Below are positions 28,970 to 32,998 of a stretch of DNA of 35,767 nt, piece by piece (the stretch's first letter is position 1; every line of letters starts with the position of its first letter). The position numbers and the translations under genes are program-made. This DNA comes from a virus. Location: the IMG/VR virus record IMGVR_UViG_3300046804_001488, positions 1-35,767 of that record; one strand, written 5' to 3'. The notes below the pieces were generated by a model. It did no database searches, was not told where the DNA came from, and was given only the letters and a program-made list of their open reading frames with translations.

Positions 28970-29412
28970 GCCTAGTATCTACATATAGGGTTTTCACCCA
29001 AAGACCCCCCTACCCCATTGAAGGAATAGGAAGGGAAGGTTCTCACCGCCCTTACGGGCATCACGATGCCAGCTAATGCTGCGCCCCTCGACTTCGTGAT
29101 TCGACCAGTCGCACGGGTTATTCGGGAACTGCCCCCTAGCCAAATGGCATACCGTGTACGCTTTCCTTCCGCGCCACCACGACTGGGGTGCTTACTAACG
29201 TGCGGAGTACGGCTGGCGTAGAGGTCGGGCATCCAATTCGGTGTCGGTGCGCCATCCCCGACTTGTTGTTTTACTAGCGCGTGTCCCGAATCAGATGCCC
29301 AAAAACAAAAAAGCCACTTACTGCTGCTCTGGTAACGGTTCCCCCGCAGGGGCAGAGCATGAGTAAATGGCTTCACTTGTTGACCGTTACGACAACGATT
29401 GAACTCTAGCAT
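28970..29412 (-). ncRNA. Candidate structured RNA (minus strand)
   Basis: This 400-base stretch of the early operon has no credible gene. It folds into many hairpins. A 15-base stem (29227-29241 with 29286-29300) contains two G.U pairs when read as minus-strand RNA but would have two A.C mismatches on the plus strand. Inside it is GTCGG/CCGAC (29243-29247 with 29258-29262). GCATAC/GTACGC (29147-29161) again needs a wobble only the minus strand provides. GGCAT/ATGCC (29057-29070) and GCCC/GGGC (29048-29059) are alternatives. GGGT-GAAA-ACCC ends the region. It could be a leader, attenuator or stable RNA. No Rfam family is recognised. Confidence 0.55.
29301..29373 (-). terminator. Large hairpin plus T-tract (intrinsic terminator, minus strand)
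   Basis: A 21-base stem pairs 29353-29373 with 29311-29331, with one G.U pair in the minus-strand RNA and a 2x2 internal loop. It encloses a second CCCC-TGC-GGGG hairpin and is followed on the minus strand by TTTTTTGTTTTT (29301-29312). In addition, GTAACGGT at 29383-29390 upstream can pair with ACCGTTAC in the hairpin loop (29332-29339), so an alternative fold or pseudoknot is possible. This would suit an attenuator controlling the operon. Confidence 0.7.
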
Positions 29413-29418
29413 AGGTTT

Positions 29419-29496
29419 CTAATCCTTGTCAATAAGAATCAAAACCATACAAACCCCGATAAGAACACCAAATAAGAAGATAGCCATATCAAGCAT
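29419..29496 (-). CDS. Putative transmembrane microprotein (25 aa)
   Basis: ATG 29496 overlaps the end of the previous gene by eight bases and gives 25 residues that are almost wholly one membrane helix (MAIFLFGVLIGVCMVLILI) ending in DKD. The junction AACCATGCTTGA has the same layout as the junction 226 bases upstream (AACCATGCGTGA), which supports translation. It ends just before the structured RNA, so it may also act as a leader ORF. Confidence 0.5.
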   Translation of the reverse strand: MLDMAIFLFGVLIGVCMVLILIDKD

Positions 29497-29966: not shown

Positions 29967-30072
29967 AGGGTAAATCTCCAGTCAAAATAAGGGCTAGGGT
30001 TATGAGGTAAGAGGGCGCGTTGTGTCCTTCGCGCACTCTATCCAAGAGCCTACGGGCATCCTCTAAGGTCAT
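29956..30072 (-). CDS. Small hypothetical protein (38 aa)
   Basis: ATG 30072 overlaps the methyltransferase stop (ATGA). The 38 residues are MTLEDARRLLDRVREGHNAP then SYLITLALILTGDLPYDR, a helix pair I associate with a common small phage protein. The stop lies 11 bases inside the next gene. Codon structure and coupling support it despite its size. Confidence 0.6.
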   Translation of the reverse strand: MTLEDARRLLDRVREGHNAPSYLITLALILTGDLPYDR

Positions 30073-31157
30073 ATCAGTTCTAGGGATTGTTGTGCAAGCC
30101 TTTTATCTTGCAAGGGTTTGTAGTCAGGATTCAATTCACACCCTAAGTATTTTCTGCCTAAGTCTTGGGCTACTTGGGCAGTCGTTCCGCTACCCATGAA
30201 TGGGTCTAGGACTACGCCGCCAACAGGTGCGCCAGCAAGGATGCAGGGTTCTATCAAATCAGAAGGAAACACGGCAAAGTGTGCGCCAGCATAGGGTTTA
30301 ACAGGCACAGTCCAAACGCTACGCTTGTTTGCTCTTTCGTATTCCTTGCTCACGTTGCCAGACTTGGTAGCATATTTAGGGTCATCGTTGTCACCATACT
30401 TGTTGCCACCAAATCTAATCCCTTCGCTTTTAGAGATAGATTCCTCTTTAATGGCTTCATGGTCATAGTGGTATTTCTGGGACTTGCTAAACAGGAATAT
30501 GTATTCATGCGCCTTAGTGCATCGGTCTTGGACACTCTCAGGCATAGGGTTAGGCTTGTGCCAAATGATGTCTTGACGTAGATACCAGCCATCTGCGCGT
30601 AGGGCAAAGGCAAGCATCCACGGAATACCGATAAGGTCTTTTTGTTTGCATCCAACAGGAATAGATTTAGGTCTGCTATCCATGATGCCTTTCTTACCCT
30701 GTCTAATTCTTTCTCCTGTAAAACCTCCAACATTGGACGTATTTGCTACACCATTGTTTGCATAACTATCTCCAATGTTTAGCCAAAGCGTCCCATCATC
30801 AGCAAGAATGTTTTTGACGCAACTAAATACCTCAACCATTGCCTTGATATATTCCTCTGGGGTTTCCTCTAGCCCTAGTTGCATATCCTCTCGAACAGCT
30901 CCGCACCTTGGGCAAATGGTTTTATAGATGCCATCACCGACAGCACCAGCCATGTTTTTATGCCCCGTAATGGTTGCCTCGGAAAATTTGCTATCCCTTT
31001 TATGGGAGCAGTTAGCATCACCTCCGAGCCACTTCCCCGTCCCATAGTCGCGTAAACCATAGTAAGGGGGGATTGTCACGCACGTTTGGGCTTTGATACC
31101 TTCTTTAGCCCATCTACGCATAGTCTCTCGGCAATCACCGAATTCAATGGTGTTCAC
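30069..31157 (-). CDS. Orphan DNA methyltransferase (N4-cytosine / N6-adenine type)
   Basis: The 362-residue protein begins with GTG (GTGA overlap) and shows the beta-class layout: catalytic motif TIPPYYGLRDYG at residues 28-39, an inserted Cys/His zinc-like region (CSHK; TICPRCGAVRED), the helical LGLEETPEEYIKAMVEVFSC, WLNIGDSYANNG, and the SAM-binding VLDPFMGSGTTAQVA near 320. The usual motif is SPPY or DPPY; here it is IPPY, which may change or weaken activity. No restriction enzyme is nearby, so it probably protects phage DNA or marks origins. Confidence 0.85.
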   Translation of the reverse strand: MNTIEFGDCRETMRRWAKEGIKAQTCVTIPPYYGLRDYGTGKWLGGDANCSHKRDSKFSEATITGHKNMAGAVGDGIYKTICPRCGAVREDMQLGLEETPEEYIKAMVEVFSCVKNILADDGTLWLNIGDSYANNGVANTSNVGGFTGERIRQGKKGIMDSRPKSIPVGCKQKDLIGIPWMLAFALRADGWYLRQDIIWHKPNPMPESVQDRCTKAHEYIFLFSKSQKYHYDHEAIKEESISKSEGIRFGGNKYGDNDDPKYATKSGNVSKEYERANKRSVWTVPVKPYAGAHFAVFPSDLIEPCILAGAPVGGVVLDPFMGSGTTAQVAQDLGRKYLGCELNPDYKPLQDKRLAQQSLELI

Positions 31158-32125: not shown

Positions 32126-32998
32126 TTAAGCCGCCAAGGGTAGCGGTACTAACTCAGCGTTATCAGCGCTTAATCCGTTGATATGGTCTACCGCCTTTTG
32201 AGCTAGTGCGGCGGCTTTGAATATCGCCTTTGAATCCTCTTTTAAGACTTTCAGCCATGATTGAATGTAGCCGGCGTGCCTTAACTCGCCTTGTATGCGG
32301 TAATCTTGGCATAGAAAAGCTGCTCCCATTTCAGCAACTAATTCCTCAAAGGCGTATAAGGGATTACCGAATTTACCCTTTAGGTTTCTATTGCATCGTG
32401 TCTCATGCCCTGTCCAATGCGTTAGCTCATGGAACACGGTAGCGTAATAGCTTGATTCATTATCAAAGGCGCTTTTATTTGGCACGTTTATTTTGTCTAC
32501 GCTTGGAGCATAAAAGGCACTATCACCCCCATGCGTGATGATAGCTCCCGTGGCTTTAATACGCTGTTCAGCAGCATCAATAGCATTAAAAGGCTTATCG
32601 TCAGCGCTTGGCGCTGTAATCGTTACCCCGTCAACTTGTAAAGCGTTATAAACATAAGAGCGTGTAAGTAAATTGTAATGTTCCTCTTCACCCGTTTGTT
32701 TATTCTTACCCTTAGTCATTGGCTTATAAAACACAATCATTGTGCCTTTTTCACCCGCACGCACTCTAGCGCCAAGCTGGTTCCATTGTTTCAGCGTAGC
32801 CCAAACGGGGCAGCCATAAGCGTTAACCATGCCCGATAACCCAAGTAATAGCCTATTGATACCCTTATAAGGGTTACCAGTAAGCATATTTTTATCGGCA
32901 GTACTATCAGCCCTCCAAGGCTTTACCCAAGGCGTAGCCCCTTGCTCTAGCTGCTTGATGATGCTATCGGTAATTTGAGAATAAATTGCATTTGACAT
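32126..32998 (-). CDS. ArdC-like antirestriction protein
   Basis: The 290-residue protein has an N-terminal ssDNA-binding ArdC domain (SQITDSIIKQLEQGATPWVK; MLTGNPYKGINRLLLGL) and a C-terminal zincin-like metallopeptidase domain with HELTH at residues 190-194 and the likely third ligand in AFEELVAEMGAAF (about 223). ArdC proteins on plasmids protect incoming DNA from restriction. It is the first early gene, next to the origin-like region, with an AAAGGGG ribosome site, fitting early expression on entry. Confidence 0.87.
   Translation of the reverse strand: MSNAIYSQITDSIIKQLEQGATPWVKPWRADSTADKNMLTGNPYKGINRLLLGLSGMVNAYGCPVWATLKQWNQLGARVRAGEKGTMIVFYKPMTKGKNKQTGEEEHYNLLTRSYVYNALQVDGVTITAPSADDKPFNAIDAAEQRIKATGAIITHGGDSAFYAPSVDKINVPNKSAFDNESSYYATVFHELTHWTGHETRCNRNLKGKFGNPLYAFEELVAEMGAAFLCQDYRIQGELRHAGYIQSWLKVLKEDSKAIFKAAALAQKAVDHINGLSADNAELVPLPLAA

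Follow-up and report, generated by a model that had tools for sequence, protein, structure and literature searches.

A structured RNA of ~400 nt, running on the minus strand from ~29,400 to 28,990 inside the early genes of a tailed phage, probably represents a stand-alone phage RNA gene that is transcribed leftward from its own sigma70 promoter, is modular and accessory, and would act early and in trans, a reading to which a probability of roughly 0.7 can be given. As far as sequence can show, it is an accessory, modular, structured RNA with its own promoter. The window, i.e., the whole stretch of 35,767 nucleotides that was analysed, is the 35.8-kb virus record IMGVR_UViG_3300046804_001488, which was assigned to a tailed phage by its terminase, portal and major capsid matches. 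Genes for RecT, a RecE-like exonuclease, a DNA methyltransferase and an ArdC-type anti-restriction protein lie around the RNA on the same strand, and the last two make its upstream surroundings an anti-restriction neighbourhood. An initial annotation of the window had placed a candidate structured RNA here and offered an attenuator, a riboregulator or an abundant phage RNA as its role, and the last of these three, a presumably abundant RNA made from its own near-consensus promoter, fits best. The features are collected in Table 1.

Table 1. Features of the RNA and its surroundings (positions in the window; locus names for features of relatives).
Feature	Position	Strand	Remarks
DNA methyltransferase / ArdC-type anti-restriction protein	30069-31157 and 32126-32998	minus	upstream of RNA
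Sigma70-type promoter, TTGACA-18-TAGAGT, extended -10 (TG)	29403-29432	minus	promoter scan 10 of 12 with TG
5' hairpin PA (GUUG/CAAC), loop bearing kissing sequence	29379-29396	minus	4 bp paired in 23/23 homologues
Kissing sequence X, GUAACGGU	29383-29390	minus	7/7 tested positions pair with X' in 23/23 homologues
Kissing sequence X', ACCGUUAC, 3' side of terminator-like hairpin	29332-29339	minus	pairs with X, 23/23
Terminator-like hairpin and U-run	29301-29372	minus	hairpin 29312-29372; 11-bp lower stem, ~6-bp upper stem, apical CCCC/GGGG
Optional plug-in stem (15-bp stem and nested stem)	29227-29300	minus	15-bp stem 29286-29300 with 29227-29241; absent from most relatives
Core CCGUAC-(helix)-CACGWUAGYAAG-(helix)-GC-GGAAGNAAA	29158-29212	minus	defines family; covariance model R1
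Alpha-type 3' domain	28993-29157	minus	alignment A1, 28 homologues
Alpha helix	29112-29156	minus	
Alpha pseudoknot helix	29108-29111/29089-29092	minus	
Alpha helix	29094-29100/29060-29066	minus	
Alpha 3' hairpin	29005-29034	minus	
Possible closing pair of 3' part	29211-29212 with 28997-28998	minus	invariant, so covariation is silent either way
tRNA-like plug-ins, rebuilt anticodon regions, long stems	L196, L209, L235, L294, L194, L198, L188, L252, L282, L218; also L201		

Strand, extent and 5' module

The minus-strand RNA (461 nt, 28,970-29,430) folds at -182.7 kcal/mol (z = -4.25 relative to dinucleotide shuffles; z = -6.5 for the 5' 201 nt). The plus strand does just as well (z = -4.5), hence folding energy alone cannot fix the strand. 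The initial annotation had argued from three stems, in which imperfect pairs are G·U in the minus-strand RNA and A·C in the other strand, that a minus-strand transcript is under selection. This argument is correct and extends to the whole family, as helix cells in the homologue alignments number 140 G·U vs 3 A·C in the 3' domain and 32 vs 0 in the 5' module (172 to 3 for both alignments summed), an excess that identifies the minus strand as the functional RNA. All hairpins that had been named on this strand were located, including the 15-bp stem, the terminator-like hairpin and the pairing of its loop with upstream sequence, and selection on a structured minus-strand RNA is borne out by extensive covariation among homologues, in the 5' module as well as in the 3' domain, and by the lack of a conserved reading frame. 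In contrast, the RNA end that had been suggested near 29301 has to be abandoned, because covarying, conserved structure goes on to ~28,993 in a unit that starts at the promoter; no 3' terminator was recognised for the RNA.

The region had also been described as holding no credible gene, which needs qualification as to the letter, since a 146-aa ORF (28972-29412, minus strand) runs across the RNA from ATG to stop. However, this frame is interrupted by stops in every other full-length 3'-domain homologue, all but one of the other 3'-domain homologues have at least one stop in every frame, homologue lengths differ by amounts not divisible by three, and the 146-aa product has no match in Pfam or PHROGs. 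That the region codes for this protein can therefore be practically dismissed.

The promoter places the predicted transcription start at ~29397 on the minus strand, and nearly all homologues examined have TTGACA, a gap of 16-18 nt, and TAnnnT ending ~7 nt before GUUG. Just upstream lies a hydrophobic open frame of 25 aa (29419-29496, minus strand) that ends in LIDKD and a stop, and whose last codons (ATT GAC AAG GAT TAG) hold the -35 box of the RNA; L125 and L121 are among the relatives with comparable frame ends (LVDK or LLIDK before the stop). Since the -35 box overlaps the end of this small frame, the promoter would belong partly to the flank and for the remainder to the RNA cassette.

The transcript begins with the hairpin PA, whose loop kisses a bulge of the next, terminator-like hairpin. 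This pairing of X with X' was predicted from the window alone, before any homologues were at hand, and then tested on a MAFFT alignment of 23 sequences, in which both sides have changed at 5 of the 7 positions, with up to four pair types. The entire 5' structure is 98.4% paired in these 23 sequences, vs 25-51% when slid, while the lower stem of the terminator-like hairpin has 96.8% of its cells paired and 5 pairs with double changes. A G+C-rich hairpin followed by a U-run, the feature of intrinsic terminators, is present in the window and across the homologues, and a simple terminator scanner missed it owing to the long loop. The kissing pair can coexist with the terminator stem, the two being conserved together, and a non-exhaustive look noticed no alternative covarying partner. 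The terminator-like hairpin and its kissing pair form a genuine element under selection; a strong promoter-proximal terminator nevertheless sits oddly beside 300 nt of conserved RNA beyond it, barring read-through or antitermination. In three loci (L143, L168 and L169), the 5' kissing module is kept and is followed by a different GC-rich RNA (GACCGCCCATTATGTCGGGG...) that looks structured and has no recognised core.

Constant core, exchangeable 3' domains and plug-ins

The core comprises 55 nt and is nearly invariant. Distant blastn matches led to two environmental phage genomes (Manatee Spring), the sole matches in INPHARED, and loci with relatives of the methyltransferase or the exonuclease added many more homologues. 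A 20-base degenerate pattern of the core was found in at least 120 IMG/VR viral contigs, and a narrower form of it in 1 of 84,980 prokaryote genomes. The covariance model R1 matches 100 of 100 pattern-derived loci scanned (47-75 bits), a result that is circular for the core, as these loci came from the core pattern, while an independent model of the 5' module matches most of them just upstream of the core and on the same strand. The single prokaryote match is a 5.5-kb contig of a Burkholderiales MAG and is itself phage-like, and was rejected as an indication of the host. RNase P motifs, which the core might resemble, were dropped as a comparison, there being no Rfam signal of any kind.

Downstream of the constant core, 3' domains of several unrelated classes replace one another, and the alpha type of the window accounts for 46 of 125 sequences. 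The alpha structure was obtained as an RNAalifold consensus of alignment A1 and then drawn by hand with one pseudoknot; on this same alignment, 97.8% of cells are paired, with 144 compensatory cells and 17 pairs with double changes, compared to 40-57% paired when slid and none of 500 shuffles as good. The pseudoknot helix is 98.2% paired, with double changes at three of its four pairs. Less certain are helices 11 and 12, in which a single side varies, and the two-base closing helix, in which neither does. Double changes were also found in 26 of 34 predicted pairs of the beta, 12 of 30 of the gamma and 19 of 50 of the delta 3' domain. Rarer types exist besides these four, and the number of classes is a lower bound, since single-linkage clustering lumped beta, gamma and delta.

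Further variation comes from plug-ins. In most of the 117 distinct core occurrences, a spacer of ~15 nt separates the U-run from the core, and most relatives have this short spacer without a plug-in, whereas the window has its 15-bp stem at this site and the loci L201, L221, L232, L238 and L295 carry unrelated inserts there. A GGGCATCNGATTCGGG pattern taken from the 15-bp stem of the window gave 20 viral matches which, where blastn reported on them, shared little beyond the pattern bases and were set aside as chance; the stem is hence a private plug-in and no feature of the family. In about ten alpha members, one hairpin tip is replaced by a tRNA-like domain on a stem of ~20 bp, and a similar domain lies between the U-run and the core in L201, so that two different sites receive such a domain. 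These domains keep the acceptor, D-like and T arms, and the L196 insert scores 33.7 bits against the Rfam tRNA model (gathering score 29) although its anticodon region is replaced. ARAGORN called no tRNA in any of the tRNA-like plug-ins, and they are no ordinary tRNAs, given that other arms take the place of the anticodon region and the acceptor continues into the ~20-bp stem. The tRNA-like domain is a feature of relatives; the RNA of the window has none, and a tRNA or tmRNA search of the window returned nothing. A tRNA gene occurs within 1.5 kb at 5 of the 117 distinct loci. Ordinary tRNA genes were seen near the RNA in L080 (1930-2003), L209 (896-1062), L187 and L239, directly upstream of it in the first three.

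Accessory cassette and possible roles

The RNA is missing from four loci (L104, L121, L125 and L126) in which the neighbouring genes are present. L125 and L114 align continuously over both flanks at 82% identity, save for a 377-bp insert in L114 that holds the RNA and starts right behind TTGACAAATAA. Close relatives thus lack the entire ~377-bp cassette at a clean empty site, which makes the RNA accessory, and as they keep the downstream genes, the whole is best regarded as a stand-alone accessory RNA gene. Of the 61 exonuclease loci with 1,249 or more bases of upstream DNA, 51 have the RNA on the same strand as the exonuclease gene, with the core at a median of 850 bases upstream of this gene. 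ORFs downstream of the core lie mainly on its strand (202 vs 50 opposite), while those upstream are balanced between the strands (108 vs 110), which suggests that the RNA often heads a transcription unit.

The separate promoter, the swapping of domains and the loss of the RNA without loss of its neighbours argue for an action in trans, presumably early in infection. The core may then serve as scaffold or binding site, with the exchangeable domains making contact with a host partner that varies. A role in host takeover or counter-defence is suggested by the early position, the neighbourhood and the modular turnover, and is the weakest step of this mechanism. The promoter-proximal terminator and the kissing pair might set the balance between full-length RNA and a 5' RNA of ~95 nt or, alternatively, protect the 5' end. 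Modular exchange and presence or absence in an early region that also encodes anti-restriction and methyltransferase proteins point to an arms-race role, which would be testable by expression in a host; the natural empty sites are ready-made deletions, and compensatory mutants can probe each helix. As a tentative extension, the constant core could be a chassis for exchangeable effector domains and tRNA-like plug-ins, used early against varying host partners and possibly in kissing-loop multimers, and tRNA- or RNA-sensing defences may be among its targets. What emerges is a large RNA machine of aquatic phages whose job can now be tested.

Other readings start from the same features. A cis-acting attenuator or leader, with read-through into the early genes downstream governed by the kissing terminator together with the 3' folds, would account for a promoter-proximal terminator-like hairpin with a conserved U-run and for the co-orientation of the downstream ORFs. 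It is nevertheless unlikely, as structure with its own covariation runs 300 nt past the terminator, the 3' domain is exchanged wholesale among relatives, close relatives retain the downstream genes upon dropping the whole cassette, and a promoter-like sequence of the downstream gene was seen by eye after the RNA in several loci. Of the attenuator role offered initially, an attenuator-like part therefore stands, namely the kissing, terminator-like 5' module, while the unit as a whole is better read as a stand-alone accessory RNA gene. The position right behind a promoter and the terminator-like hairpin also recall the put RNA of phage HK022, and put RNAs are promoter-proximal paired hairpins, so that the RNA could modify RNA polymerase in cis and let early transcription pass terminators. 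This reading is very improbable for an RNA that is far larger than put, has variable 3' domains and is missing from close relatives whose operon is the same.

A self-assembling RNA like GOLLD, ROOL or OLE, whose copies would be linked through the kissing pair and conserved loops to form a multimer bearing the tRNA-like or other plug-ins, deserves some attention and is rather doubtful. GOLLD and ROOL have been reported as RNA-only cages held by kissing loops (PMC12286853), and the present RNA is alike in style, being phage-borne and large, with a variable insert able to hold a tRNA and a covarying kissing loop. Since each sequence contains both X and its complement X', their pair could also join two molecules, the sequences being unable to separate the intramolecular from the intermolecular form. 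However, the RNA has no Rfam match to GOLLD, ROOL or OLE, is half to two thirds of the size of these families and is seldom accompanied by a tRNA gene. A stand-alone, accessory RNA gene acting in trans thus remains the preferred reading.

Comparison with known RNAs

A search of Rfam 15, which the initial annotation had proposed, matched no family at gathering score in the window, and nothing relevant was found at E ≤ 10 in the 1.1 kb around the RNA, nor anything except tRNA at E ≤ 1 in the loci of 13 relatives; the covariance models of GOLLD, ROOL and OLE had no match in the window, in these 1.1 kb or in the 13 loci. Assignment to a known RNA family was hence rejected at any threshold used (up to E ≤ 10 at the site). 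No description was found in the open-licence literature, preprints aside, and the family seems to be undescribed. With intrinsic terminators and attenuator leaders the RNA shares a stem followed by U6-8 ~95 nt from the start, but here the hairpin is joined to a 5' hairpin by a covarying kissing pair, and what comes next is a conserved structured domain rather than a leader peptide or a gene. Racrs, phage RNA anti-CRISPRs that mimic CRISPR repeats (PMC10651486), are likewise non-coding RNAs of phages, and a possible role in counter-defence is common to both; no likeness to a repeat unit was noticed in the present RNA.

GOLLD and ROOL are nearest in style, and the RNA is not a member of either. 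Like GOLLD, it is a large structured phage RNA with covarying kissing loops and sometimes a tRNA inside, the linker of GOLLD sometimes containing tRNAs (PMC12286853). The layout of GOLLD, however, has a conserved 3' part and a variable 5' part (PMC12286853), whereas here the 3' domain varies and the 55-nt core and the 5' kissing terminator are constant; moreover, the RNA has ~400 nt vs ~800, and frequent adjacency to tRNA genes, a trait of GOLLD and ROOL, is not seen in this family. ROOL, another large RNA of phages whose function is unknown, also has kissing loops and a variable linker (PMC12286853), but the present RNA does not match the ROOL model and has another architecture. Failing the match to both models and mostly lacking a tRNA neighbourhood, it is best regarded as a family in its own right, although broadly of their kind. 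The known classes of large bacterial RNAs with elaborate folds are few (GOLLD, ROOL and OLE), and their functions are poorly understood (PMC12286853); to these, a seemingly undescribed family with a defined promoter, a small constant core and swappable domains is added here.
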